The notes under the pieces were generated by a model. The model was not told the DNA's origin and ran no database searches. It saw nothing but the letters and a program-made list of their open reading frames with translations. A DNA stretch of 48,693 nucleotides. It comes from a virus. Made by a program: the position numbers and the translations under genes. This document shows positions 3,088 to 42,300 of this stretch, piece by piece; position 1 is the first letter of the stretch, and every line of letters begins with the position of its first letter. The stretch covers positions 1 through 48,693 of IMG/VR virus record IMGVR_UViG_3300021598_000740, one strand, 5' to 3'.

Positions 3088-5322
3088 TTAAAAATCTATT
3101 GTTAATTCTATTGAAGCGGTTGTAGAATCAGCCAATCTTATTGGTCTGGATAATTTACCCACCAAAACTAAATTTTGACTACTATCTAATATACCAATCT
3201 CACTTATATATCTGTCATAACCAAACTCATATGTTGGATTACTACTAGATGATATAGTTGCCCCATCAACATTTATATTGAATAGTGACTTGTATATTGT
3301 TGCCCCTATATATGTTCTAAGGTTACCATAGAATAATCTTTCTTTACCAAAGTTTAATCTACCATAGTAACTAGCGTTAGGCATATCCAATTCTGCACCT
3401 AAATTAAATGTAGACGACCCACTATAAAGTGAACCTGTCATAATAAATCCAGTAATATTAGGATTTTGGTTTTCTAATAATGATGGACTAATTGTTTCAC
3501 CACTATTGACTGTAATTTTATTACTAGTGAAGTCCATAACCTTCCAATTAGATGGTATCGGTCTTAACTGAGTATTTGGGTTAACCACTTGTGCCAACAC
3601 TTTAAATGTATCTGCAAAGAATCCATATCCGTCATAAGACGCATCTTCTTTTTTCCTCATATATGGTAATTGACCAAGATTGTTAATTCTAAACTGAACG
3701 TCTTTATCTGAACTAGTGTTATTATCTATAACCGAATATCTTTGGCAAGGTAATATAGGTGTTGTAACATTAGTCGTACCTGTTCCTACGTTCTCTAACC
3801 AATAAGTTAAATACATTCTCTCACCAGCTTTAAGAACTCCCGTACAATTACCACTAACCGATGTTATTAATTCCGCTGATAAATCAGGTAATGTATAATT
3901 TCTATTCGATCTATATGACATAGCCGCAATTAATTCCTCATTATCGATAACAACTATTTGTAATTGAGGGAAAACTTTACCAACTACTAAAGGTAGTGTA
4001 GGTGTAACTGACATTCCACTATACTCTATTAAATCATAATATTCTACATCATTATTAGAACTCAATGTTTTCTTAACTCCATCAGATGTAAATCTCATAC
4101 CTAATGTCGTACCACTTGATGTACCAACATCATTTCTTCTATGCCACATAACAGGTATATCTAAATTTAAAAGTTTACCAGTTTCTGCATCAATGTAAAA
4201 TTGTTCACCATAAAAATTAGAAATACAACTATTCGTATAATGTATTATAGAAATAGATTTTCTATATGGGTCAATATAACTAATTGACTCATTAACACCA
4301 CATATAGAATTAGCGTCATTAGTATCACAAACTAAATTTTCATTATACCCTAAATATTGTTTTGTACCAGTGTATTCTTCAGAACCAAATAAATTATGTT
4401 CGTGAAAATTAACTGGCGAATCTTTATAAAGTCCTGCGGGGTTTTCTGTCCAAACATTATTCATATTCCATACAGGTATGTTCTCAACACAAACATCACA
4501 ACTACTTTCGAAGGATAGTGTACCTGTATTCCAATACGCAGTAAGTGAATTTAATCCATAATAACTATCTGTGGGATCATCACCACCAGGTATTGTATAA
4601 TAACTAATAATTGTGCCTGAGTATGCACTTAATGTAGGTAATGTTCTATCTACCCTTATTGTCGAACCACTTAAATATGTGATACTATAAGTAGTATTTA
4701 TTGTCGCTGCAGTCATAGTGTCTCCAGTAACGTTACCTAATGTTGGATTACTAAATCTAAATACTATATAATCGTTTACGCTAGTTGCAGTTAATGGAGT
4801 ATCTAAAACTAAAACCCCTTGTGTATATGTACTTAAATTAATATTACCATTAAATTTACCTAAATCTATAGTACCACTCTCTTTTATAAATTTAGTATCT
4901 GATTGAGCAATTAATCCTGTGTCTACTGTTGATCCAGAAAAGAAACCTCTATCTTCTGCCTTATTAGACACTAAACCTTTAATTAATTGTATATTACTTT
5001 GTTGATTTAAAGGAAATAAAAACTGGTTACTTTGATTAAGTAGAAAAGTAGAGAAAAATGGATTATCATCTTTTGGTCTCAGTACTTTAGAGAATATATT
5101 TTTTTGAATGTTACCATCAGGATTAGTAAAATAAAATTGTCCTGTTGCTGCCCCAGCAGATGGGACAAATTCTTTCCAACCCTTTACGTAATTATAATCA
5201 ACCTCAGAATCACCTATAATGTAGTTGGTGAAGGTTAATTGTCCTTTTGCTAATTGTTCTCTACCTATATCTGTTAGTTTTACTCTTACTAACGTAGTAC
5301 TTTGTTTATTTATGTAACTCAT
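3088..5322 (-). CDS. Tail or baseplate structural protein, larger paralogue (744 aa)
   Basis: The 744-aa protein shares its first ~45 residues (motif LTxxGRExL followed by GDSEVDY) and its last ~50 residues with the 431-aa protein encoded next to it, and carries a much longer central region. The centre is rich in Thr, Ser, Asn and aromatic residues, as in beta-rich fibre proteins, and holds a Cys pair (CDVC) near the sequence SSCDVCVEN. The ATG is preceded by a copy of the recurrent ATATTTAT motif. I infer that the pair arose by duplication and that the centres diverged for different surface contacts. Confidence 0.65.
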   Translation of the reverse strand: MSYINKQSTTLVRVKLTDIGREQLAKGQLTFTNYIIGDSEVDYNYVKGWKEFVPSAGAATGQFYFTNPDGNIQKNIFSKVLRPKDDNPFFSTFLLNQSNQFLFPLNQQSNIQLIKGLVSNKAEDRGFFSGSTVDTGLIAQSDTKFIKESGTIDLGKFNGNINLSTYTQGVLVLDTPLTATSVNDYIVFRFSNPTLGNVTGDTMTAATINTTYSITYLSGSTIRVDRTLPTLSAYSGTIISYYTIPGGDDPTDSYYGLNSLTAYWNTGTLSFESSCDVCVENIPVWNMNNVWTENPAGLYKDSPVNFHEHNLFGSEEYTGTKQYLGYNENLVCDTNDANSICGVNESISYIDPYRKSISIIHYTNSCISNFYGEQFYIDAETGKLLNLDIPVMWHRRNDVGTSSGTTLGMRFTSDGVKKTLSSNNDVEYYDLIEYSGMSVTPTLPLVVGKVFPQLQIVVIDNEELIAAMSYRSNRNYTLPDLSAELITSVSGNCTGVLKAGERMYLTYWLENVGTGTTNVTTPILPCQRYSVIDNNTSSDKDVQFRINNLGQLPYMRKKEDASYDGYGFFADTFKVLAQVVNPNTQLRPIPSNWKVMDFTSNKITVNSGETISPSLLENQNPNITGFIMTGSLYSGSSTFNLGAELDMPNASYYGRLNFGKERLFYGNLRTYIGATIYKSLFNINVDGATISSSSNPTYEFGYDRYISEIGILDSSQNLVLVGKLSRPIRLADSTTASIELTIDF

Positions 5323-5361: not shown

Positions 5362-8261
5362 TTAATATGCATTACCAGCATTTGTCAATATTTGTATTTT
5401 ATTTACATCACTATATGACACATCATAAATAGTTTCACCTATAATTGGTGTATAAAATTTTTCATTTTTAACTCTATATATAAATTTATCTCCTGCCACC
5501 GCATTTGTCAACGTTATCATCTTACTATAAGTTTTTTGATTTAATTCATAGTCTACTATTTCACTATATATGACACTTTGGAACTCTATGTCTGTTGAAG
5601 AAGTAATCTCAACAGTAAAACGACCATATATTTCGGTAGATGGTGCACTATTTATTGACCAACTTATTATTGGTGTGTTTGTACTTATTCCACCATTAAT
5701 CGCTGCGTTAGGAACATAAAACGCCTCTAATACATCTCCAACATTTAAATTATTTTCTAAAATTATTCTTCTATTGTCACTAATTGATCTATAATATTCG
5801 ATATCTTTAGACAAAATTGATCCATTTAAAGATAAAACTACATCAGTTGCTGGAGAACTAGTTAAATAAAATTCATATTTTAAAGTAGTTGTATTAAAAA
5901 ATACTCTATCTGACGTAGATTGAGTTACCCCACTACTGATTGGTGACGTTATCGGATATGTGTCTGCCAATAAATCATTTGTTTTACCGTTTGAAATAAA
6001 TGCGTATGTTAATATTTGATTATCTAATGGACTAAATGAAAGTCTTATAAATGGTGTTGCACCTGTTGTTATAGCACTATACTCAATATCCTTTGCCAAT
6101 ACAGAACCATTATAACTTACTATTGGGTCAGATAACCCATCTATAAAATAATCAGTTTGTCCTGAATTAGTAAATTGTGTCGAAACGGTAAATGTGTTTA
6201 AAGATGGTGGAGATGGTGCAACACTATTATTAAATAGTGGTTTATCCGCAGAAAAAATATTAATAAAATACCAATCTGTTTCAGGATAGTAGATACCATA
6301 TAAATTACCTCTTTTATATGTGTCTAAACTATTCTTTCTTACTAATTGTTGTTTAGCCAAAAGTGTATTGACATCATAATTCCAATAAGATTTTAATAAA
6401 AATTCCCCTTCACCTATGTTCAAAGAAGGTATAAAAATTGTGTTACCTGTATTTGCAGTTAAAGTTTCATATGGTAGTGAAAAATTATACAATGCAGAAT
6501 TATTAAAAACTTGTGTATTACTATTGTATTTATAAATCTCACCATAATACGATAACTTATTTGTTTCAATAACTCCATTTATGTTATTAACCAATAAATC
6601 AAACTGAAAACCTGATTGAGTTTTTGGGGTTATAAACACACATCTATCACAAGAAATACTTTTAGAAGTGATGACGTTTGGTAATCCCCACAATGATGTT
6701 GTACCTGTCACTGTAGACGATGTTAATGTGAATCCATCTTCCTGAAAATTACATTGAACACCTAAACCATTTGGCCTATGTATTATATGTAATTTATCAC
6801 TATTATAATCTGCCACATAAATTCTCTCATCAGGACCCATTTGTAATGCACCTAAAGTAGCCCCACTAATATCTGCCACCTCTATTACATTATTAACCAT
6901 TTCCGTTGCCGATGTATATGATAAATCAAATTGGTAGATTTTTTCGCCTGCACCATCAGAAACATAGAACTTAGACGAATCTGAAGAAAATTCTAAACCA
7001 TACGGACCAACATTAAATGTCATTCCCGTAATACTAATCAAATTAGATAGTGTACCTGCAGAACTTTCAAAATCTAAAATATCTATAATGTCTTCATCAT
7101 ATAGTAAAGAAATTAATTTATTACCATCTGGAGATGTTTTCATATACCCCCTAACAGTATTGTGAACACTACCAATATTTGTAGTTACTGGTGCAGTTAA
7201 ACCTATAGACGAAACGTAATAACTATAATATGTACTATCACCACTTGTGTGTGTTATTACCCAATAATCTTCACCATTACTATGGCTACAAGCAGTAACT
7301 TTTTCAGTTAAAGGGTTACTAATTAGTTGTATATTTTTTGTAGTAACTTGACCGTCACCATTTTGTAAACTCATGTCTACTATAGAATAATTAAACCCAT
7401 TTGTTAAACCATTATAGTTAGTAGTAAATATATAATATTTATCCGTATTCGGTCTAGGGACAATAATTGACGATTGTGTTGATGTTCCTGAACTAGATAA
7501 ACTATCACCACTAAGCATAATAGTATTAGCACTAGTAAATACTGTTTCACCATTAGTGTAAAACAATAACTTACCTTCTTCGTTAGATATTGATGAGCAT
7601 CCTTCCTGCGTTACCATCGCACCACTTATCGTAATTGGATTATTACCATTTTGTATTGGGTTAAAACTTATACCCACATTTTGCCCAAAAAACCAATTAT
7701 AGTTTAATCTATCATATGTATACCCAGTATAAGATACAGGACCACATAAAGTTTCCGCACTAGATGTAGGAATTTTACGAACAGATCTCATCGTAATTTG
7801 AGGAAAATCAAAACTATCAAAATCTGACCTCTCCACATGAATATAAGGTTCAGTATTACTTATATCCACTTCAATATGTAAACTTTCTCCCCTACTAGCC
7901 AATAATTGATATTTTCTACCCCCATCAATATATCTAATTTGATTATTAGGTATTATTGGGGTAGTTAAAATACTATCACTACTATTACCAGAAAAATATA
8001 ATGGAATAGTTTTTTCAATTAATTTATCTCTAAAAATAGACTGCCCATATTTTTCTGGTTTAGATAATACAAAAATATTATCTATCATAGATAAATTTGT
8101 TGGTAAAAACAATGCTGATTCGGTTTCTAAAAAAGAAGACAGAGATGATGCTTGATAGTTAATGTCTGTACCAACTCTTAAAACAACAGGTGTCTCAATT
8201 TCTCTAATAACCTCACCACCACTTTTTATAGGATTTATTATTTACCACTTATTTTTGCCAT
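5362..8261 (-). CDS. Tail protein with a Bacteroidetes surface-type beta-propeller; start disrupted by a one-base frameshift
   Basis: The open frame from 5362 stays open to 8241 but has no ATG there; the first listed start would be TTG at 8112. The natural start is ATG at 8261 (MAKISGK), which hits a stop after seven codons. Adding one A to the AAA run at 8243-8241 joins the frames as MAKISGKIINPIKSGG and gives a product of about 965 aa. Residues ~185-530 resemble the propeller found in Bacteroidetes secreted gliding-type proteins: WFFGQNVGISF, EGCSSISNEEGKLLFYTNG, SSIIVPRPN, YWVITHTSGD, GYMKTSPDGNKL, GPDERIYVAD and a final WGLPNVI. The rest is Ser/Thr/Asn-rich. I infer a tail-tip protein that binds a host surface structure. 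Confidence 0.7.
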
Positions 8262-17317: not shown

Positions 17318-18193
17318 TTATATTCTTATAAATCCACCCCTATTTGTGTCAATATCATTAGTTGTTTTTATTTCAGATAATATTGCGTGTCTTTCAAATA
17401 TATCAGCAATACCTCTATTTATAAATACTACACTCTTAACTTCTGGTTTAAAAACTACACCTAAAAATTCTTCTTTTTTTATATTCGCACTTAAAGATGT
17501 GTTATATTGATTCCATCCACCGTTTGATGCCTTAAATTCTGTCTTATTATATGTAATAGATTTACCAAATTCGTCAATTGTTTTCACAAAATCATTTTTA
17601 TATGTAGTGAATAAAACCCCTGTATTTGGGATGTTATTTACATTCGCACCAATTTTATAAGTTGTGAATGTAGAACTATCCGTTAAAACCCCATCAAAAA
17701 TATTTTTAGGGTCTTGTGATACATTTAAATTAGGAACGTATATATCATTACCAGATGAATCTTTTCTATAAGATTTAACCTGTTTTAAAAAACCATCATC
17801 GGTAGTCCCCGTAATTGTTGCTACATTACTAAAATAGAAGTTAAGTGGTGCACCAGCCAATCTACCATACTCAAAAGAATTAAACCCTAAAGGTTTATTA
17901 TTTAAAAGTGGTGTTTTAGGTATATAACTTTGATCACTAAATAATCCCATATCATCAATATCTTGTGTCAAAAACAAGTCGACATCAATAGTATTAACAA
18001 TTTTTTGCCCAAAAGAATTTAAAATAAAATTACCTTCTTTATCTATTTTATAATCAGGAATTTTACCATAATAATATTTAGGGTTTGTTTCATCTATAAC
18101 AGTTTTACCATCAGCGTCTTTTTTTAAAACACTTTTAGGTATACTTCTTACAGTATAATTCTCTAAATTCCTTTTTTTTCTAATTATTTCCAT
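17318..18193 (-). CDS. Structural protein of unknown function (291 aa)
   Basis: The 291-aa product begins MEIIRKKRNLENYTVRSIPK and is rich in Asn, Asp and Thr. No family is recognised and no catalytic motif is visible. The segment LGVVFKPEVKSVVFINRGIA near residue 250 and the FERHAILSEI helix near the C-terminus are the most hydrophobic parts. The gene sits 13 bases downstream of the 301-aa gene. The ATG follows directly after an exact ATATTTATTAAT motif. A tail/baseplate role is inferred from the operon. Confidence 0.65.
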   Translation of the reverse strand: MEIIRKKRNLENYTVRSIPKSVLKKDADGKTVIDETNPKYYYGKIPDYKIDKEGNFILNSFGQKIVNTIDVDLFLTQDIDDMGLFSDQSYIPKTPLLNNKPLGFNSFEYGRLAGAPLNFYFSNVATITGTTDDGFLKQVKSYRKDSSGNDIYVPNLNVSQDPKNIFDGVLTDSSTFTTYKIGANVNNIPNTGVLFTTYKNDFVKTIDEFGKSITYNKTEFKASNGGWNQYNTSLSANIKKEEFLGVVFKPEVKSVVFINRGIADIFERHAILSEIKTTNDIDTNRGGFIRI

Positions 18194-27190: not shown

Positions 27191-27574
27191 TTAGAATGTT
27201 AAAGTTATTGTATCTGTACTAGTGAAAGTTCCTTCTGTAACAGTATAGGTTAATTCCACAATTATTAATTCTTCGATATCATCATTTCTAAATGATATGT
27301 CATTTATGATTAAATTAGGTATATATAATTTAATTGTATCATTTAAATTATCTCTAATTTGTTCATGTGTGATTGAATCATTTGGTTCAAAAATGTATTT
27401 TTTTAAATCACTACCAAAATCAGGGAGATATAACCTTTCACCTTTATTAGTTAAAAGTAGATGTAATAAATCCGCCCTAATAGCGTCTTTATCTGTTTTA
27501 TTCATCTGAAAATAAAACCCATTATCACCATCCCTAAAAGGGAAATCAATATTTATATACCTAGTCTTTGCCAT
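27191..27574 (-). CDS. Baseplate wedge protein, gp25-like
   Basis: The 127-aa product matches the small gp25/IraD-like family, which locks the inner baseplate to the first sheath ring. Visible features are the FPFRDGDNG start, ADLLHLLLTNKGERLYLPDF near residues 34-53, GSDLKKYIFEP, and a closing beta-strand pair (IEELIIVELTYTV). The older name 'gp25-like lysozyme' does not mean enzyme activity, and no catalytic motif is evident. It is directly followed by the gp6-like gene. A variant of the recurrent upstream motif lies just before its ATG. Confidence 0.9.
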   Translation of the reverse strand: MAKTRYINIDFPFRDGDNGFYFQMNKTDKDAIRADLLHLLLTNKGERLYLPDFGSDLKKYIFEPNDSITHEQIRDNLNDTIKLYIPNLIINDISFRNDDIEELIIVELTYTVTEGTFTSTDTITLTF

Positions 27575-27634: not shown

Positions 27635-29560
27635 TTATTCACATTTAACTTCCATCGTAAATATTGTTCTATCTAATGGTGAAAATACCATTATTATCAG
27701 TTGGAAATTCTCTTCTTCTTTGGTAATTTTAAATGATGTACCAGATTTCATTATTTGTTTATATCTAACAATGTTATCTTTTATACTACCACTATTAATA
27801 ATATCATCAGTTATTTTTTCTGCCTCAGCATCACCATTTTTAAAGATATCTTTAACTGTCAATTTTCCCCCTTCAGATTTAATTGCTTCATTTATACTCT
27901 CTAATAAACCATCTTGTCGTTTATACATTACTAACTCACCAACAAAATTCCTTACAACATTATCCATCCCACTATAATCGTTATCACCAGCATTTAATTC
28001 ATCTTTAACAATATCTTTAACATATTTAGACTGTAATGGTAACATTTTTTTCTTTTCTTTAACACTTAAAGCAACTTGTCTATATTCATCATTATAGACA
28101 TCTCCCATAAATCCGCTAAAGAACTCTTGATCACCATACTTAACATAAAATGCGTCAGGAACAACCAATGAATCAAATGAAATAGTTACCGTATCCCCTT
28201 CCCCAACAGGGAATCCACTTTTAACTGTTGCTGCAACAAAGTTATTTTGTTTAGTACCTCTACCCCCTTCTTTTTTCTCATTATACCCACATTTTAATGG
28301 TGGTTTTGGTGTTACACAATTACACGCATCTACAGTAGGTTTAATTTTACCTTCAGGACAATCACATTTTTGTGTCTCTTCATTAAATGTCATACCATTA
28401 GGACATTTACAATCACCATTTTCATCACGTTTTTGACATTTATCAGGACATTCTCTTTCTTTTTCTTTCAAACATTCACAATCATCTGTCTTTTTGAAAC
28501 CTTTAGGACATTCACATTGTTTTGTAGATTCATTAAATGTCATACCTTTAGGACATTCACATTTTTTTGTTTCTTTGTTAAATGTCATACAAGGATCTGG
28601 ACAGTTTGTACATTCACAATTTTCATCAGGTTCTTTACCATTAGAACAAAAACACTTACCATCTTTTTCTGTTAAACCTTCTTTACATTTACATTGTTTA
28701 GTTTTTGGATCTCTAATCATACAATTAGGACATGGGTTGTATGGTGTAAAACATAAAACTGCGTCTATCATTACTAATTGACCCGCATTTAATTCACCAC
28801 TTTTAATTGCTGCTGCTACTACTGAATGAGTATCTGTTTTATCTTCAGTATAAATGGAACCAGAAGTAATATTTTTTATTTCTTTTTTGAAATCGGCTGG
28901 AACTTTAATATTATTTTGTTGAGCAAAAGTCACAATTTTTTTAGTTAATTCATCTAAAACTTTTTGTGCCCTTCTTTTTGCCAAATCTTCATTACTTTTT
29001 TTACCTGAAGAATTTTTATCATAAACCTTTTTTTCGGTTTTACCAAAACCTTTACAACCAGACGCCCAAGTTTTTAATGAAGTTATCCCAACGTTAACAT
29101 CATATTCATTACAATACTTAGGTTCTACCGCAGGAAATTTATTACTATTACTACCCTTCCAATAATTACTAGCACCCCCAAATACGTTGATGTCCTCAAT
29201 AGTAAATTCACCATCTGCAAACAAACCAAACTGTTCTTCAACTTTTTGTTTGAACTTCTGAAAGAACTTTTCAGGTACTTCTTTATTTACATCACTTTCA
29301 GTTTTATATACCTCAGTATTTGTAATAGACACACAATTCTTTTTACTTGGTTCTTTACCACCTTCAGTTTTTGATTCTTGTTCTACATTATTTTTTTCGT
29401 TTTCACTATCCGCAGGTTTATTTTGATTTTCACTACCACCATCACCTTCATCAGTATCACCACCTTCAACGGATGCAGTACTAACTTCATTAATCTTTAC
29501 ACCTTGTTCGTAAACCATTAAAGACTTTATTCTTTGTAACTCCTCAAAAAGATTCTTCAT
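27635..29560 (-). CDS. Phage protein with OmpA-like segment and EGF-like Cys repeats (641 aa)
   Basis: An N-terminal helix (MKNLFEELQRIKSLMVYEQG) is followed by an acidic, low-complexity linker to ~75. Residues ~95-275 include NEDLAKRRAQKVLDELTKK, which recalls the helix of OmpA-like domains. Residues ~270-420 are a Cys-rich array with repeated units such as MTFNEETKKCECPKG and MTFNESTKQCECPKG, of EGF-like/TIL-like character. The C-terminal ~200 residues form a mixed domain. Its neighbours are gp25 (downstream) and the divergently oriented metalloprotease (upstream). The function is unknown. A surface-binding or injected role is inferred, not shown. Confidence 0.65.
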   Translation of the reverse strand: MKNLFEELQRIKSLMVYEQGVKINEVSTASVEGGDTDEGDGGSENQNKPADSENEKNNVEQESKTEGGKEPSKKNCVSITNTEVYKTESDVNKEVPEKFFQKFKQKVEEQFGLFADGEFTIEDINVFGGASNYWKGSNSNKFPAVEPKYCNEYDVNVGITSLKTWASGCKGFGKTEKKVYDKNSSGKKSNEDLAKRRAQKVLDELTKKIVTFAQQNNIKVPADFKKEIKNITSGSIYTEDKTDTHSVVAAAIKSGELNAGQLVMIDAVLCFTPYNPCPNCMIRDPKTKQCKCKEGLTEKDGKCFCSNGKEPDENCECTNCPDPCMTFNKETKKCECPKGMTFNESTKQCECPKGFKKTDDCECLKEKERECPDKCQKRDENGDCKCPNGMTFNEETQKCDCPEGKIKPTVDACNCVTPKPPLKCGYNEKKEGGRGTKQNNFVAATVKSGFPVGEGDTVTISFDSLVVPDAFYVKYGDQEFFSGFMGDVYNDEYRQVALSVKEKKKMLPLQSKYVKDIVKDELNAGDNDYSGMDNVVRNFVGELVMYKRQDGLLESINEAIKSEGGKLTVKDIFKNGDAEAEKITDDIINSGSIKDNIVRYKQIMKSGTSFKITKEEENFQLIIMVFSPLDRTIFTMEVKCE

Positions 29561-29574
29561 ATTTTTTAATAATT

Positions 29575-29605
29575 TTTGTTTATTTAAGAAAAAATTATAT
29601 ATTTG
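29575..29605 (+). promoter_or_regulatory. Bacteroidetes-type promoter of the metalloprotease gene
   Basis: TTTG (29575-29578), 19 bases, then TATATTTG (29598-29605): a perfect TTTG-N19-TAnnTTTG. It lies 25 bases before the ATG of the only plus-strand gene. Confidence 0.8.
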
Positions 29606-29611
29606 TTTTAT

Positions 29612-29619
29612 TATAAATA
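29612..29619 (+). promoter_or_regulatory. TATAAATA box, identical to the T4 late promoter core
   Basis: TATAAATA starts seven bases after the host-type -7 element and ends 10 bases before the ATG at 29630. It equals the T4 late consensus. No gp55 or gp33 homologue is visible in this window, so late use is an inference, and chance is possible in such AT-rich DNA. Confidence 0.4.
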
Positions 29620-29629
29620 CAAAACAACT

Positions 29630-30193
29630 ATGAAAAATTTAATAATTGCACTATTAATTTTAAACCCTATTTGGTTTTTTTCTCAAAGTCTTTTTACTAA
29701 AGAAGAACTTTTATTAGCAACAGAAGGTGGGGATAGATGGTATAAAGATATTAAAATATGTTTATACGGTAAGTACACCAAAAAAGACTCATTGGATGTT
29801 GTTGAAACTATTAAAATTTTTAAACCACTTATTAAACCTATTAATATAAGTATGGTTAAAAATAAAGATTCTGCTAATGTGGTTATATATTTCTTATCCG
29901 ATACAGAGTTTGCCAATATGTTTAAATGGTCAAAATACGATTTAGTTAATATAGGTATAACTTTTACAGAACCTATAAACCATAAAATTAAAAGTGTTTA
30001 CATACATATAGATATTGTAGAAAATAAAGAATTTAAATCATTTTCTAATACAATTAGACACGAAATGTTTCATATGTTAGGTTTTTCTCATTATGAAAAA
30101 GAAAATAATTCTATTTTAGATCACAATAATAATTTTACTGAAAAGGATATTGAAATGATAAAATATCTTTATTCTAAAAAATTTAATACATAA
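29630..30193 (+). CDS. Secreted metzincin-like zinc metalloprotease (187 aa)
   Basis: This is the only rightward gene. The start at 29630 gives a typical signal peptide, MKNLIIALLILNPIWFFSQS, ending in a flavobacterial-style FSQS cleavage region; an upstream in-frame ATG at 29603 would bury it. The zinc motif HExxHxxGxxH is complete (H144, E145, H148, G151, H154). The following SIL (161-163) occupies the place of the matrixin SIM Met-turn, with Leu for Met, and a terminal helix EKDIEMIKYLY fits matrixin/DUF2927-type proteins. It is preceded by a perfect host-type promoter and a TATAAATA box, and converges on the DUF5522-like gene. It is likely exported to the host periplasm or outside. Its substrate is unknown. 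Confidence 0.8.
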   Translation: MKNLIIALLILNPIWFFSQSLFTKEELLLATEGGDRWYKDIKICLYGKYTKKDSLDVVETIKIFKPLIKPINISMVKNKDSANVVIYFLSDTEFANMFKWSKYDLVNIGITFTEPINHKIKSVYIHIDIVENKEFKSFSNTIRHEMFHMLGFSHYEKENNSILDHNNNFTEKDIEMIKYLYSKKFNT

Positions 30194-30226
30194 AAAAAAT
30201 CACTACGATTGTAGTGATTTTCTTAT
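30192..30226. terminator. Bidirectional terminator between convergent genes
   Basis: AAATCACTAC (30197-30206) pairs perfectly with GTAGTGATTT (30211-30220) around a GATT loop. A run of A lies on the left and TTTTCTT on the right, so it can stop transcripts from both sides. It overlaps the last codons of the DUF5522-like gene and the stop of the metalloprotease gene. Confidence 0.9.
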
Positions 30227-30430
30227 TTCTGTGTTACCTTTTATATGTTTGGGTTCATAAGGACAATGTAAACATCCATTACCACAACAAGATCCTCTTC
30301 GTTTATGATATTGTTCATTCATAACTATTCTACCATCATTATCATAATAGAACTCATTTGGTTGTAGTTTAGGACCGAATTCCCTTATGTATAGTTGTTG
30401 TACCCAATCTTTTGATGCCCCTACATTCAT
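30203..30430 (-). CDS. Small Cys-rich DUF5522-like protein (75 aa)
   Basis: The 75-aa product carries the motif RGSCCGNGCLHCPYEP (C48, C49, C53, C56), preceded by YDNDGRIVMNEQYHKRRG. This is the hallmark of the short DUF5522 proteins widespread in bacteria including Bacteroidetes. The four cysteines suggest a metal or Fe-S site, but no activity is established to my knowledge. An extra ~25 residues precede the conserved domain. It lies downstream of the ribonucleotide reductase terminator and ends in the shared bidirectional terminator. It was probably acquired from a host; a link with the reductase is only positional. Confidence 0.75.
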   Translation of the reverse strand: MNVGASKDWVQQLYIREFGPKLQPNEFYYDNDGRIVMNEQYHKRRGSCCGNGCLHCPYEPKHIKGNTEIRKSLQS

Positions 30431-30519: not shown

Positions 30520-32379
30520 TTATATAATTTCACAAGCTCCTCCAGCACAAGCAACTTCACCTGAAAGATTAGTGTTATCTTGTAATTCTATAACTTTAGT
30601 TAAATCAACTGAAGATAAAGACTTCATCATAGTTTCGTATGTTTCGATATTACAATCCTCAAAAGGTGCTTGTTGGTATGTGCCTCCATTATAAGGTAGA
30701 ACTGATAATCCATTATAGAATTTTCTATTCGTCCACATCCATTCACCAGCCAATTCCCAATCTTCTTCTTTCAAAGATATTGTCGCAGATACATTATGTG
30801 TATTTTGCCCACTTCTGTGTCCTGGTTTAATCCATTCTTGTGATACCTTTTTAACTCTTTCTAATAAATCAAAAGGAGATTCATATCTTAATATAGAACC
30901 TTCTGGTGATTTTTGTGGGATAGATATCACTGCAGTATCGTGTGGTCTAAAAATTTCATCTTCTACTAATTCAGGATGGTTTATAGATAAGTAAGTATAT
31001 ATTGCTTCATTTTTACCAACTCTGATTCTTCTAATATAGTAGTCATTATGCCAAGCATGAATCCCTGATGATGTACCCAAAACTAATGATGAGGTACCTG
31101 ATGGTTTAACAGTAGTAGTTCTAGCGGCAGAATTGATACCGATTAATGTCGCAACTCTTTCATTTTCATCTTTAACTGCTTCAGAAGCTGCTTTCATATC
31201 ATAACCTAAAACAACTCCAGATCCAATACCTGTCATACCTACACCAATAAGTGCATCTTTTTCAGTAGTTCTTTTCCATACATCTCTTAAATAATGGAAG
31301 TCTGTATAACCAGCCTGTAATGTCCCAATAAACGCTGCACCTCTAACTCTTTTTTCAAAGTCTTCTTGCGATTCGATGTCCGATGCGTTCACTTCACATA
31401 AATTACAGAACTGATAAGGTCTAAGACCTATCTCACAACAAGGGTTTGTACCCCAATCTTTGTCATTTGAGAAGTAGATTCCTGGTTCACCAGCACCACT
31501 CAACTCAATTCTTTTCCATAAATCTAAAAAGAATTCTTTAGTAACTTTATGTCTTAATAATACTGCCGAATTATTTGCTCTACCTCTCTGAGGATTTAAT
31601 TCCCACCAGTTTCCTGCTTTACAAGAAATCATTTCATTGTCATCCGCAGAAAATAAACTAATTAATGCTGCTCTACGAATACCACCCGCTAAAACTGCAT
31701 CTGCAATATGACATACGATATCATGTGTTTCAATAGGTGTTAATTTTTCTCCATCAGTTTTAGAGTCCAATACTTTTTTAATATTATGTATACAGTCTTT
31801 TAATGGTTGTGGACCTGGTGCTTTACCACCCGATGTCACTAATAATGCCCCTTTATGTCTAATGTCTGAATAATCAAATATCGGAGTAGATGACTTTACA
31901 CCAAAATAAGATTCTACTAATAATTTAATTGCGTCTGCCCATCCTTCTATTGAATCCCCTATTAAATATCTTCTTTTTCTATCAGGATTAGGTTTTCTAA
32001 TTTCTGGTAGTTTATCTACGTGATGTTTTTGTACCGAATAACCTACACCTGTCCCACCTAACAATAAAAACATTGTTTCTGAAAAGGCATCCGTATGATC
32101 GATAGGTAAATATGCACAGTTATAAACTCTATTAGGAGATATTTCAATAGGTTTACCACCAAATTGTAAACTTCTCATTGAAGGTAGTATTTTTTTATCA
32201 TAAACTAATTTATAAACTTCTTCAATTTCATCTTTAATATTGGGGTATTTTTTTTGATGCATTTCTTTGTTTCTAGTAACTAATTCTTCCCAAGTTTCTC
32301 TTCTATTCATTTCTGGTAAGAATTTAGCATACTTCATATAAACCGTAATGTCAGACAAAATTTTATTTGATAATTCCAT
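30520..32379 (-). CDS. nrdJ: Adenosylcobalamin-dependent ribonucleotide reductase (class II)
   Basis: The 619-aa enzyme should convert ribonucleotides to deoxyribonucleotides using vitamin B12 coenzyme. The three active-site cysteines are visible: C88 (VYNCAY), thiyl-forming C314 in NPCCEI with E316, and C325, spaced 11 residues on as in the Lactobacillus enzyme (C408/C419). A C-terminal CAGGAC pair (C611, C616) can shuttle electrons. LGGTGVGYS and KPSGTSSLVLGTSSG are further family motifs. At 619 residues it is shorter than the monomeric Lactobacillus type (~740), so allosteric parts may be reduced. It is the last gene of the replication unit and feeds DNA synthesis; it depends on cobalamin from the host. 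Confidence 0.93.
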   Translation of the reverse strand: MELSNKILSDITVYMKYAKFLPEMNRRETWEELVTRNKEMHQKKYPNIKDEIEEVYKLVYDKKILPSMRSLQFGGKPIEISPNRVYNCAYLPIDHTDAFSETMFLLLGGTGVGYSVQKHHVDKLPEIRKPNPDRKRRYLIGDSIEGWADAIKLLVESYFGVKSSTPIFDYSDIRHKGALLVTSGGKAPGPQPLKDCIHNIKKVLDSKTDGEKLTPIETHDIVCHIADAVLAGGIRRAALISLFSADDNEMISCKAGNWWELNPQRGRANNSAVLLRHKVTKEFFLDLWKRIELSGAGEPGIYFSNDKDWGTNPCCEIGLRPYQFCNLCEVNASDIESQEDFEKRVRGAAFIGTLQAGYTDFHYLRDVWKRTTEKDALIGVGMTGIGSGVVLGYDMKAASEAVKDENERVATLIGINSAARTTTVKPSGTSSLVLGTSSGIHAWHNDYYIRRIRVGKNEAIYTYLSINHPELVEDEIFRPHDTAVISIPQKSPEGSILRYESPFDLLERVKKVSQEWIKPGHRSGQNTHNVSATISLKEEDWELAGEWMWTNRKFYNGLSVLPYNGGTYQQAPFEDCNIETYETMMKSLSSVDLTKVIELQDNTNLSGEVACAGGACEII

Positions 32380-32478: not shown

Positions 32479-33687
32479 TTAATTAAATGATTCCCTTTTT
32501 TTGTTTAATGTTTCTTGAATAAATTTAGAATCTTTTTGTTTTGATATTTTATCATGTTCTAATAAAGTAACATCTCTACTATCACTAGTATCAATAACTA
32601 ACGTACCATTATCGAATAAAATATCCTCAAATACAACACCATCTTTACCAAACCTAGATTTAAGTATCGCTAAAGTTGCCCTACCTTCTTCTTTTTGTTC
32701 TAATGTTTTAGCTGCAGATAAAATGAAATGCCCAATTTGCCCTTTTTTAATGGATCCACCCATCATATTAGCCTCCACTAATTCAGCACCAATCGCACTT
32801 CTATTTCCTTGTACCGCAGTCCACCCAGCAACACCTAATTCAGATAACATAGTTTCAAACTGTCTCATTACATTACCTTCACCACTAAACTCATCTTTAA
32901 ATTGTTTCGTAGGTTGTACACAGTCTATGTAGTCTAAGAAAATAACATCAGGTTTTACACCATTAGAAATTAATTTTTTTAGATATTGTCTAATGTGTGG
33001 TATTGTAGTACCATCACTAGGCATTCTTTTCAATATTAAATTCCCTGTTAAGTCTTGAAAATTAGTTAACTTTTGTTCTACCTCATCACTTCTTTCCTCT
33101 AATTCATTTAAAGGGATTTCAGTAAAACATGTGTAGTGTTTTCTTTGTATTACTTCTGCATTATCTTCAAAGAAGATTTGTACTACATTTTTACCCATCT
33201 TATAGGCAGTATTCGCCATTCTAGTGATTAATGTAGTTTTACCTACACCAAACGCCGCCAAAATAACTCCTAACTCACCTTTTGATAGTCCACCACCCAT
33301 TAGGTTATCTATTCCAATTAAACCTGTAGGGATTGGGCTTCTAAAATCCGCTGATAAAACATTTTTAATATTATGAAAAACATCTATACCATCGTCTTTT
33401 TCTGTACCAACAATTAACTCATTTGCTGATTCTCTTGCAATTTCTCTTCTTACTTCAGTTTTAATAAGGTTAAAGATGGTATCATAAGACGGTATGGTTT
33501 CATATTTCTCATAATAATTTTTGACACTAGCAACAACTAACCTCATATACTCATTATCAAAATAATTTGGATCGATTATAGTGATAATACTTTCCGAAAA
33601 TTTTTGATCTTCAATTAATTGCTTAACTAGTTTTACTTGAAAACTATATCCTAAATACCCTAAATTAGAACTTTCATTTTTTGCCAT
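32479..33687 (-). CDS. Replicative DNA helicase, DnaB/gp41-like
   Basis: The 402-aa protein has a small N-terminal domain (1-110) and a RecA-fold motor. The Walker A is AAFGVGKTT (144-152). An IFFEDNAEVIQRK segment follows, then the Walker B VIFLDYIDCVQP with D252. This order is that of DnaB-family hexameric helicases such as T4 gp41. It should unwind DNA at the fork and recruit the primase encoded at 82-1038. The AEQGNRS-like loop appears as TAVQGNRSAIG. An exact ATATTTATTAAT motif lies 20 bases before the ATG, inside the end of the upstream gene. It is encoded upstream of nrdJ with a 99-base gap that shows no clear promoter or terminator. Confidence 0.9.
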   Translation of the reverse strand: MAKNESSNLGYLGYSFQVKLVKQLIEDQKFSESIITIIDPNYFDNEYMRLVVASVKNYYEKYETIPSYDTIFNLIKTEVRREIARESANELIVGTEKDDGIDVFHNIKNVLSADFRSPIPTGLIGIDNLMGGGLSKGELGVILAAFGVGKTTLITRMANTAYKMGKNVVQIFFEDNAEVIQRKHYTCFTEIPLNELEERSDEVEQKLTNFQDLTGNLILKRMPSDGTTIPHIRQYLKKLISNGVKPDVIFLDYIDCVQPTKQFKDEFSGEGNVMRQFETMLSELGVAGWTAVQGNRSAIGAELVEANMMGGSIKKGQIGHFILSAAKTLEQKEEGRATLAILKSRFGKDGVVFEDILFDNGTLVIDTSDSRDVTLLEHDKISKQKDSKFIQETLNKKRESFN

Positions 33688-38109: not shown

Positions 38110-38298
38110 TTACATTAAAAGTTGTCTACCATCATTAGTTTTGTAAACTTTATTTACTCTTTCAACAATTTCTTTTCCGTCATTAATCAGACATTCATCA
38201 CCTACACACTCTTTAGATTGTGTTTTTTTATTAGTTAAAAAATCATCTAATTTTTTCCCTAAGTTTTCTGTAGATTTTTTATTTTTATTATCTTCCAT
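38110..38298 (-). CDS. Small hydrophilic protein (62 aa), unknown
   Basis: The 62-aa product (MEDNKNKKSTENLGKKLDDF start, Cys pair CVGDEC near the middle, GRQLLM end) is charged and lacks membrane segments. No family is recognised. It lies between the 137-aa gene and the acidic 250-aa gene with short gaps. The ATG has an exact ATATTTATTAAT motif 12 bases upstream. Confidence 0.6.
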   Translation of the reverse strand: MEDNKNKKSTENLGKKLDDFLTNKKTQSKECVGDECLINDGKEIVERVNKVYKTNDGRQLLM

Positions 38299-38737: not shown

Positions 38738-39323
38738 TTTTAATAATATACGGGATTAATCTGTTTTTATTTTTTATTTTATATAAAAAATCCCTGTATT
38801 TATTAAATATCTCAGAATCTATCAAAACGGCAGAATTTAAATTATTTATCACCCTTAACGTTTTTTCTTTTTTACCGTCAAAATAATCTAAAATGTTTAA
38901 ATCAATTCCAAAAATTATATTATCACCGAATATATAAACCATATTATTATCTGATACATACACATATGGTTTTACTAACGTTAAAATTTTTTTAATTATT
39001 TTTTTATTAACGTTTTTTTTACCATATAAAATATCTAAATAAACATAAGGTATGTTATCACCAAAACTATTGTAACAAAATTCCTTAAAAGATTCTATAT
39101 CTGTTTCAAAATCTGCCTTCCTCTCTTTAGAATTAAATGTCCAATATGTTTTTAAATTAATAGATTTATGTAAAATGGAAACTTTATTACCATACATTTC
39201 TTTAACTAAATCCCAACCAATAATTAAAATAGGTAAATCGTTATTAATTAAATCATCCTTACCATAATTTTTGAACCCTTCTATACTAATAGGGGAATTA
39301 GATATTATATTTCCAAAATACAT
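38724..39323 (-). CDS. Unknown protein (199 aa)
   Basis: The start is placed at ATG 39323 (MYFGNIISNSPISIEGFKNY), because upstream in-frame residues overlap the promoter-like sequence and read as low-complexity. The 199-aa product has alternating strands and helices (DLPILIIGWDLVKEMYGNKV; TDIESFKEFCYNSFGDNIPY). I do not recognise it. It overlaps the 137-aa gene by 14 bases, forming a coupled pair between the hub gene and the acidic gene, and a promoter-like TATATTTG lies directly before it. Confidence 0.7.
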   Translation of the reverse strand: MYFGNIISNSPISIEGFKNYGKDDLINNDLPILIIGWDLVKEMYGNKVSILHKSINLKTYWTFNSKERKADFETDIESFKEFCYNSFGDNIPYVYLDILYGKKNVNKKIIKKILTLVKPYVYVSDNNMVYIFGDNIIFGIDLNILDYFDGKKEKTLRVINNLNSAVLIDSEIFNKYRDFLYKIKNKNRLIPYIIKNGND

Positions 39324-39327
39324 AGTG

Positions 39328-39335
39328 CAAATATA
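39328..39335 (-). promoter_or_regulatory. Promoter-like TATATTTG before the 199-aa gene
   Basis: TATATTTG on the minus strand lies 4 bases upstream of the ATG. The flanking AAAAAAATATTATTA matches the spacer of the primase promoter. No TTTG is found at 19-20 bases upstream, so the -33 element is weak. Confidence 0.45.
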
Positions 39336-39354
39336 ATAATATTTTTTTAAAATG

Positions 39355-42300
39355 TTAAGGTCCTGGATTAAAATAATTAATAAGTGGTTGATTATTTTTA
39401 TCAACAAAGGTAGTCAATACTTTTTCAAAAGTAGTAAAGGCATTTTCTAACCCCTTTGGACTATATTGATGTGTTAAATTTATACACTTACTATATATTG
39501 ATGCCGAACCAGATGGTAATGAAGAATAATCATACGCATTTTTATCACCATCTTTTAAATAATTCCAAACTTTTAAACTAGTCAATATAGTAGAAGGTTC
39601 TCCTGATGATGCAATTGTAGGTTCTGCCAAACCTGAGTCACCATATATATCATAGTATTGTTTTCTACCAATAACATATAAATAACCTCTAGGTTTATAT
39701 CTATAGGCATCACCCTCAAATATGTTATAATATTTAGTAGTCTTAATTAAATTTTCTTCCTGTTTAGTTAAATCTTTTAATTCTTTTTCTAAAGTATCTT
39801 TTTCAGATTTTTGTTTTGGGTCATTAACATCTAATTTAGATATCCTATTATTTATATCTTGTTTTCTTCCTTCAATCTGATCATTTATTGAATACTCTTT
39901 TAATGTATCGTTACCAGGAAATTTACCGTCATAAGCAATATTGTTAACTGACCCACCCGTAAAAATAGGTAAATATGACAAATATTTATCTGAAGAATTT
40001 GATTTTCCGTAATATTTAATTTTATCAGGATTTATAGGATCAGTACTAGGGAATTTATCTACATATGTCTCTTTGTTTTCCACATCCCAAGAAATTTCAC
40101 TTTTGGATAAATTTTCTGAATTAGAAAGAATTGCAGATAAAAACATAGTAACTTGTGAATTAGTCAAAATGTTATTGAATTTCATTTTACTTTCTAAATC
40201 ATTTATTACTTCTCTTAATTTTTGATCAGTAAAAGTAGTAACACCAATATTTTTAAATTTATTAACACCCTCATCCACATTTGCTACAGTACCAACACCA
40301 AAGTTTTTCTGATAATCAAATAAATCTGTAGGGTTTAAAACACCTATACTAAATATTTCATTTTTATTATTAAGATTAGTGAACTCTATTTTTGGTGTCT
40401 CACTACTTTCATTTAAATCTATATCTAAATCCGCAGTAATCTGTTTTGAAGGTGATGTTATATATTTTGATTGTCTTAACCCCTCAAAACTAGTAGACAT
40501 TTGGTTTGGTGTTATGTTATGGCTAACACTAGTTATAAGATATGCACCATTAAAAAATGGAACATTTTGTAAATCGAAATACATTAATGGTTGTATATTC
40601 ATACATCCCATAGCCTCAACTTTACAAGTATATGATCTAGTTTTAAATAATCTTAATAAATCTGTACCTACATATGCTTTTTGGGTACCACCTCTTTTAT
40701 CTACTAAATCAGATAATGCTTTAAAATATTCCCCTGTCTCTCTATGTTCCTGTTGACTTAATGAAACATTTTTAAAAACTGTCTGATTTTGTGCCCCAAA
40801 TGAAACTCTAAATGCGACTAAAGAAGAATCACCTAAATCAATATCACCTTGATTATTAATAGTATCTGATTTATTTTCATCAACAATATCTGAAGGAATA
40901 TTACCTGTAGTTAAACTAAATCCGTCATCTTTAAAATAATAATTACTTCTCTCACCAATATCTAACGCTTGTGATGCCCCACCAACCCAAATACAACAAA
41001 ATATAGGTCCTGAAGAATCATTATTTTCTAATACCGTTTGTGGTTGGAATATCTTAGCGACTTCAGTAGCACTTTTAAAATTAATATATGTAGGTAATAT
41101 TTGGAAAAGAAAATTACTGTCTCTTAAAAGTTTAGACATAAAGAAATAAACACTAGTATTTAAATTACTACCTAAAGAAAGAAAACTTTTTAAATTAAAT
41201 GTTGCTTCATCCCCAATAAATCTCCAACCTCTATCTATAAATTTAAAATATTCAAATAAATTTTTATCAGAAGAATCTCCACATATACTAAAAGAACCGC
41301 TATTACCTATCCATTTATTACTTATATTTTTAAAATAATTATAAAGTTGTAATTTTATAATATTTGTACTTTTATTATCATCTTTTTTTTCTTCATTACC
41401 TTCTTTTTTACCATTATCATTTTCTTTACCTACCTCATTAAACTTTTGTTTAAAATTACTAACATATTTTTTCAATAATGATTTATCTACAATCAATCCT
41501 TTATTTTGACTTAGTTGTGCAATCTTAACATTATCAAAAATATCAGGATTCAATAAAATTAAATCTGTAGTTTCTTTTAATTTAGTAAAAATATTATTTT
41601 GAGCTAAATCTTGTTCTTGTGTAGTTAGGGTAGTTTGGGTAATTAAATCAGGTACATATAATTTTACTGATCTTTCAAAAAAACCATTTTTACTATTGTT
41701 AAAATTATCACTATCCACCCAACTCTTAAATTTATTAATAAGTTTATCTTTAACCGATTTAGGTAAATTAATTAATTCATCTTCTAATGGTTCTGTTGTA
41801 ACATTTGTGGTTAATCTATGTCCTACCTTATATAAATAAGAATTTGCGGGAGAACTAAAATTAGAATAATCTTTTCCTGTTGAGAAAGTGAATTTTAATG
41901 GATCCACAAGATTTATAGATTCCTCATATCTCCACAATAATGCCCCAATATAATAAACATATAATTTAGGTAAATTAATTACTCTCGCCCCATCAAATAC
42001 TTTGGTATCAAAAACAGACTCTAAAAACCCTTTTTTAAAATTTTTGAACGGGAATGTAGATAACAATAATAATGCCCTAGCGTAATTAGAACTTTGTTTA
42101 TCGTATAGTTCTGAATATGTCATAATATCTTCATAATCAACAGAAGTATTAGTATTCTGTCTAAAATATGTCATATTAATATATTTACTATTATATGTAG
42201 AACCACTCGAATTATTTAATGTAGAAAGACCTGGATTAAAATCAATTATTTTACATTTATTTAAATTACCTAATATTTCATTATCACTAGATTTAAGAAT

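Follow-up and report, generated by a model that had tools for sequence, protein, structure and literature searches.

The analyzed window is the whole IMG/VR virus record IMGVR_UViG_3300021598_000740 (48,693 bases), which comes from a T4-like phage, a virus of Bacteroidota bacteria. Its T4-like gene set, recognized by Pfam and PHROG, includes gp25-like and wedge baseplate genes, a DnaB-like helicase, a UvsY-like protein, and a ribonucleotide reductase (RNR). All gene-sized open reading frames (ORFs) of the window are located on the minus strand except 29630-30193 (plus strand), which encodes a secreted protein of 187 aa modeled with a metzincin fold. A sequence-only reading had described this gene as the sole plus-strand gene and, in the ORF list read by eye, it is indeed the only plus-strand ORF that does not overlie a longer minus-strand ORF.

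The gene order at this locus is RNR, DUF5522, the metzincin gene, a gene at 27635-29560 (herein referred to as the partner gene), and gp25. The metzincin gene thus lies between two minus-strand genes, 27635-29560 and 30203-30430. The latter encodes a DUF5522 protein (Pfam E 4.1e-16), and the gp25-like baseplate gene (Pfam and PHROG) occupies 27191-27574 on the minus strand. The metzincin and partner genes are divergent and have a 69-bp intergenic region in common (29561-29629). A terminator-like hairpin, read by eye, is found between the convergent metzincin and DUF5522 genes (30198-30219).

DUF5522 proteins are small, Cys-rich, and frequent in viral contigs, where they were found in 273 stretches; among the best 80 of these, the gene adjoins the RNR gene wherever the flank suffices. 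The RNR of the window (30520-32379) shares 67.9% identity with its counterpart in Microcystis phage Mel-JY01 and 62-63% with those of Vibrio and Oceanospirillum phages. Since identity to Mel-JY01 is only 27.6% for the baseplate wedge protein, the RNR gene has perhaps spread recently across phages of different phyla. Several minus-strand-gene queries, including RNR, wedge, and DUF5522, were one codon short at one end, mostly with the start Met absent or the stop retained.

Sequence Features and Predicted Fold of the Metzincin

The observation that 29630-30193 encodes an exported metzincin-type sequence was confirmed. Residues 1-18 (29630-29683) read as a signal peptide of the flavobacterial style, as had been proposed. 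This segment and its cleavage site were assigned by eye, and our own rough signal-peptide script did not flag the gene. The segment is followed by Gln19, which is present in all 29 distinct metzincin sequences, drawn from 47 loci including the window. A Gln right after the signal peptide fits the Q-rule for signal peptidase I substrates of Bacteroidetes (PMC5837995), which Porphyromonas phage proteins are also predicted to follow (PMC10367356). The complete zinc-binding motif HExxHxxGxxH was found at residues 144-154 (HEMFHMLGFSH; 30059-30091), again in agreement with the earlier reading, and is kept in 29/29 distinct sequences. A six-frame search for this motif gave a single match in the window and one in each of G005 and G001, two relatives with more DNA; shuffled sequences (20 each) gave a mean of 0.0. 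The Met-turn slot (residues 161-163, SIL) is in register and is occupied by Leu163 (30116-30118). This Leu had been noted as unusual; its presence holds, but it is normal in the family, which has Leu in 22, Ile in 5, and Met in 2 of the 29 sequences. For the metzincin gene, dN/dS was 0.18-0.33 in eight of nine pairs; the ninth, between very close sequences, gave 0.58.

A structural model built with 30 sequences reached pLDDT 84.7 and pTM 0.82; an earlier model with 15 sequences (pLDDT 58.4) also matched matrix metalloproteinases (MMPs). Foldseek ranked karilysin first (E 3.7e-5) in a list dominated by MMP catalytic domains. In VIA-align, MMP-9 aligned with Z 13.3 over 142 residues at 2.8 A and karilysin with Z 13.2 over 147 residues at 3.3 A. 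The modeled product combines a matrixin-like metzincin fold with an intact zinc motif, and it would be expected to bind zinc and act as a peptidase. The sequence-only reading thus survived the check for a fold prediction without the metzincin zinc site.

Known families share only part of these features. Karilysin of Tannerella forsythia and the vertebrate MMPs resemble the window protein in fold (Z about 13), in HExxHxxGxxH, and in being secreted, and T. forsythia, like the host of the phage, belongs to Bacteroidota. Matrixins (M10A) have a propeptide with a cysteine switch. In the window protein, the aligned fold begins at about residue 29, ten residues past the signal peptide, which leaves no room for such a propeptide. 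It also differs from the matrixins in identity (14-19% for the rows listed), in its phage origin, and in the Met-turn residue, which is mostly Leu or Ile in its family. The protein scores below the Pfam cut-offs for M10 (PF00413; 14.2 of 24 bits), DUF2927 (PF11150; 16.9 of 26.2), SprT-like (16.6 of 25.6), and M8 (13.5 of 21). Among 15 members of the family, at Pfam E<=1, M10 was matched by 13 (best 2e-4), SprT-like by 12, and DUF2927 by 11 (best 7.3e-6). Sequence searches of the PDB gave weak matches only, and no PHROG matched the protein. According to the model, the window protein belongs to a new branch of the metzincin fold in phages.

Distribution of Metzincin Relatives

No relative of the metzincin was found by tblastn (E<=1) in 50,697 records of cultured phages. 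Scans of IMG/VR yielded 21, 46, and 51 loci, with identities of 42-98%. All 16 phage records searched by profile have a single copy. Outside these 16 records, the loci L156 and L157 hold a second, divergent metzincin-like copy.

In bacteria, peptide patterns identified no relatives among 101 candidate stretches, and a profile found none in 12 genomes. Related proteins were found by profile (E<=0.001, with the best eight candidates per genome scored) in 17 of 397 genomes from the family of genome G018, which holds locus L087, titled Zhouia amylolytica. Of the bacterial relatives whose alignments were inspected, some keep HExxHxxGxxH and others have lost it. The host-leader cassette was absent from 199 genomes with three mismatches allowed, so capture of the metzincin gene together with its leader is unsupported.

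Two Promoter Classes and the Conserved Leader Box

Upstream of the metzincin gene, the -33 element TTTG (29575-29578), a 19-nt spacer, the -7 element TATATTTG (29598-29605; consensus in PMC6847099), and the box TATAAATA (29612-29619) all occur on the plus strand where the sequence-only reading had placed them. In Flavobacterium johnsoniae, transcripts start 4-5 nt past the -7 element, and an A at -3 favors translation (PMC6847099). With the same spacing, the metzincin transcript would start near 29610 and have a predicted 20-nt leader (29610-29629) with A at -3. In the window, each strand has a single match to the strict form TTTG-N18-21-TATATTTG, where a Markov model gives means of 0.15 and 0.12. 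Relaxing the -7 element to TAnnTTTG makes the case weaker, with four plus-strand and two minus-strand matches against 1.42 and 1.58 expected. Conservation is a stronger argument than these chance statistics: TTTG-N18-21-TAnnTTTG precedes the metzincin gene in 41/41 loci with sufficient flank, with 17 distinct spacers. The promoter was also present in four of five later metzincin loci, the fifth being cut by the contig end. Thus, the claim of a host-type promoter is borne out.

Promoter classes were compared in G005 (330 ORFs; loci L023-L035) and G001 (106 ORFs; loci L036-L040), using greedy ORF calls. ATATTTG[TA] was found within 60 nt upstream of 27 genes in G005 and 10 in G001, with TTTG at the right distance in 15 and 7 of them, respectively. 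A second box, ATATTTAT, precedes 62 of the 330 and 16 of the 106 ORFs at a distance of 60 nt or less, with TTTG at -33 in none of either set. In G005, ATATTTAT reaches 3.13 per kb in upstream 60-mers vs. 0.09 in genes, and TATAAATA reaches 0.91 vs. 0.14. A position weight matrix seeded with ATATTTAT matched 97 of 328 upstream 70-mers in G005; 33 matches in reverse-complement and 43 in reversed controls indicate that part of this count is AT-rich background.

In the relatives, genes with a promoter of the host-type class include those for primase, an SbcD-like protein, NAMPT, and a peptidase. This company argues for early timing of the metzincin gene, which is probably transcribed early by the host RNA polymerase. 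Of the earlier proposal of early host-polymerase expression, the promoter itself stands, and the timing would follow from the promoter class. The ATATTTAT class precedes gp25 and also DnaB, so early and late genes are not cleanly separated by it; it is probably a phage-type class, middle or late. PHROG assigned names to 4/4 scanned host-class proteins and to two of six ATATTTAT-class proteins, DnaB and a tail fiber with the box 69 nt upstream; most scanned proteins of this class are unnamed.

The box ATATTTAT is directional and may be a phage-specific promoter distinct from TATAAATA of T4. In the window it is located upstream of 3088-5322, 17318-18193, 27191-27574, 32479-33687, and 38110-38298. 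Isolated small genes on the opposite strand with signal-peptide-like starts were also observed in G005 (117761-118177, 119676-119951, and 229726-229944) and G001 (63244-63657); in three of these four, a host-type promoter is combined with a TATAAAATCAAACA(C/T)T leader.

The box TATAAATA had been taken for a T4-type late promoter, so that the gene would be a lone moron, which the host promoter would drive early and this box possibly late. The promoter and the box do occur together, and all 41 of 41 loci have kept TATAAATA, which spans roughly positions +3 to +10 of the transcript expected from the host-type promoter. If used as a T4 late promoter, the box would give a leader only about 5 nt long. 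Its upstream counts are 18 of 330 in G005 and 6 of 106 in G001, against Markov expectations of 11.0 and 2.0, which is at most a weak enrichment; the strongly enriched box is ATATTTAT instead. The assignment as a T4-type late promoter is not supported, given this weak enrichment and the position of the box inside the predicted leader. Together with the constant presence of the partner gene (see below), which means that the metzincin gene is not alone, this makes the dual-promoter moron very improbable.

TATAAATA was also considered as a possible late box for the divergent gene. Its complement, TATTTATA, faces 27635-29560, but it matches ATATTTAT exactly in some clades only, and in the window it reads GTATTTATA. 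Enrichment of the variant GTATTTAT is weak in G005 (0.22 vs. 0.059 per kb) and barely present in G001 (0.13 vs. 0.045, one match).

The Partner Gene and the Two-Gene Module

The partner gene (27635-29560, minus strand) encodes 641 aa, with an N-terminal EELQRIKSLMVYEQ, a weak OmpA-like stretch, and Cys-rich repeats following this stretch. No signal peptide was seen by eye, and no match to TIMP was found in Pfam or in PDB sequence searches. The OmpA-like stretch is below the Pfam cut-off (E 0.1 in the window); it was detected in 4 of 12 members (best 0.083) and in a protein of L313 (0.0077). A PHROG scan of six proteins, partner-family or OmpA-like, gave no match. In the sequence comparison of the partner family, several rows are one codon short at one end and the L264 row begins before the start codon.

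The partner protein starts with MKNLFEELQRIKSLMVYEQ, an N-terminal type found on other G005 proteins. With a loose pattern, this type was found in 26 ORFs of G005, ten with ATATTTAT and none with a host-type -7 element, and in four ORFs of G001, none with either. Short N-terminal peptides (EELxRIKxLM, IRRILKEE, LTEnDLxRIV) are common to many phage proteins, including G005 7217-7822, 39256-39786, 191932-192972, and 225860-227653, as well as window 27635-29560; they are perhaps propeptides or packaging signals. The location beside gp25 and the N-terminal peptide suggest a virion protein, and the partner would thus travel in the virion. Upstream of its gene, there is no ATATTTAT, only TATTTATA 59 nt away; its presumed late expression therefore rests on its position among baseplate genes.

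Pairing was examined in 84 loci, some of which are one contig fetched twice. Both genes were found in 76 loci; six had the metzincin gene alone and two the partner gene alone, all eight being cut by the contig end. Among the best 80 of the 273 viral DUF5522 loci, the metzincin gene was found in 21, neither gene in 49 (with a flank of more than 1.2 kb), and ten were too short. In 16 larger records behind DUF5522 loci, the only profile match was in the already known L264 record. In every relative with enough DNA to judge, the metzincin gene adjoins this one opposite-strand gene. The two genes are gained and lost as one unit, a two-gene opposite-strand module, and the notion of an isolated moron was not upheld.

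The two proteins also change together. Of 25 chosen rows, 19 had all five genes, near relatives among them. Median divergence in these 19 loci was 0.53 for the metzincin and 0.50 for the partner, compared with 0.14 for gp25, 0.08 for RNR, and 0.27 for DUF5522. The partial correlation between metzincin and partner given gp25, RNR, and DUF5522 was 0.726, and none of 2,000 permutations was as high. Given gp25 and RNR only, it was 0.772, with a control value of 0.468 for metzincin and DUF5522; part of the co-divergence could come from block recombination of linked genes. This coupled change suggests that the proteins act as a pair.

These data bear on the possibility that the target of the peptidase is a protein of the host outer membrane or surface, for example a receptor, whose degradation would keep further phages from adsorbing, the pairing being linkage only. 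Export, the early-type promoter, and the zinc site in 29/29 sequences would all suit such envelope shaving, which is nevertheless unlikely in view of the strict co-occurrence and coupled divergence with the neighboring gene and of the zinc-lacking versions that are paired in the same way.

Zinc-Lacking Relatives and DUF2927

A second type of the exported protein lacks the zinc site. In L156 and L157, a second metzincin-like gene that has lost this site (VMYEEITQCFGFLTDS) is located beside an active divergent pair; in L156, it is convergent with a second partner-family gene. The zinc-lacking and active pairs were found in tandem once. In L313, a zinc-lacking-type pair is located at another site, beside an ORF that looks Clp-type by eye. 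In L264, a distant pair has swapped order and no zinc ligands. The partner-family proteins of both types are related (E 4.5e-8 to 8.4e-6). By eye, the promoters of the zinc-lacking members are complete in L313, limited to the -7 element in L264, and imperfect in L156. In a profile scan, the second partner type was found in only five loci, so it is rare in the collection.

Further arrangements were observed around these families. In the region 5001-9231 of L313, an exported protein is twice paired with a partner-type protein encoded on the opposite strand, the two pairs lying in tandem. The second pair combines an exported protein with a weakly OmpA-like protein; no metzincin core was found in this exported protein, for which the profile match covers only residues 1-64, signal peptide included. 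G005 has two further partner-family members, at 225860 and 227668, the latter convergent with a small lipoprotein gene bearing a host-type promoter. For the partner-family gene of L319, no exported neighbor was found within the contig stretch examined.

Of three zinc-lacking relatives scanned, two exceed the DUF2927 cut-off of 26.2 bits, with 51.9 for L156 (6599-7267) and 62.5 for L264 (6486-7085). These are DUF2927 proteins without zinc ligands and relatives of the zinc-competent phage metzincins. The window protein differs from them in its sub-threshold score of 16.9 bits and in its three retained zinc His residues. From these scores, DUF2927 appears to share the metzincin fold, zinc having been lost in these members. 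No paper on DUF2927 was found in one open-access library.

The paired zinc-lacking versions also bear on a role in maturation, in which the peptidase would trim the partner as virions leave or enter the cell, activating rather than blocking it. Such trimming would give the same pairing and coupled divergence; zinc-lacking versions would be unable to trim, though, and an early-type promoter would be unnecessary, which leaves maturation improbable.

Comparison with Known Systems and Proposed Role

Among the papers that one open-access library listed for phage metzincins or exported phage proteases, none describes this pair in its title or the beginning of its abstract. The nearest phage metzincin pair found in this search is Mtz-Tim of Listeria. 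In that pair, a metzincin of phage origin with one neighboring gene is reported to sensitize cells to phage lysis (PMC8235301). Like the module described here, Mtz-Tim has a metzincin exported by Sec and signal peptidase I, with HExxHxxGxxH/D, and a constant neighboring gene (PMC8235301). There, the partner is a TIMP-like lipoprotein and the Met-turn Met is kept (AIMLD), whereas here the partner lacks a signal and lies on the opposite strand.

By analogy with the Listeria proposal, the exported peptidase could loosen the envelope and ease lysis and release, with the neighbor acting at lysis or being merely linked. Such a lysis helper seems unlikely, because the promoter is host-type and probably early, the neighbor is not an exported TIMP-like lipoprotein, and paired zinc-lacking versions exist; moreover, no lysis gene was recognized adjoining the metzincin gene in the non-exhaustive Pfam and PHROG scans.

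In phage T4, Spackle is made early, is periplasmic, and binds the lysozyme domain of gp5, inhibiting it (PMC7677548). Similar to Spackle, the metzincin is proposed to be the product of an early gene of a T4-like phage, to be periplasmic, and to have an incoming virion target. No relation in sequence or fold is claimed; Spackle inhibits the gp5 lysozyme and is not a peptidase, and the action proposed here is conjectural.

Our tentatively favored explanation, held at somewhat less than even odds, is that in the periplasm the exported metzincin cuts or binds the partner protein that another phage brings in, giving Spackle-like exclusion or envelope protection. It builds on the sequence features, the predicted fold, the host-type promoter, the pairing, the coupled divergence, and the zinc-lacking type. 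The host RNA polymerase would transcribe the metzincin gene soon after infection, and Sec and signal peptidase I would export the product to the periplasm, while the signal-less partner would be carried in the virion. With one protein exported and the other signal-less, they would meet only when another phage delivers its partner protein or at lysis. The zinc-active type would cut the partner protein arriving from a second, related phage, and the zinc-lacking type would bind it. The outcome would be superinfection exclusion or protection of the envelope of the infected cell, as for Spackle and the gp5 lysozyme. Restriction of contact to entry or lysis, together with the Spackle precedent, favors exclusion or self-protection.

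A broader and more doubtful reading is that T4-like phages of Bacteroidota possess a family of such modules, which would be entry-protein and immunity pairs deciding superinfection. One protein would be OmpA-like and arrive with the virion; the other would be exported and have the metzincin fold, as a working peptidase or as a DUF2927 form without zinc. In the active type, immunity would be cleavage of the incoming protein.

Beyond the new metzincin branch, the metzincin-partner module is the interesting part of this locus. The analysis ties the uncharacterized family DUF2927 to the metzincin fold, at the strength given above, and tells two promoter classes apart in a large group of uncultured phages. 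If the proposed role is true, a phage would bar its rivals by periplasmic cutting of an incoming virion protein, and the matched active and zinc-lacking sets make this idea directly testable.
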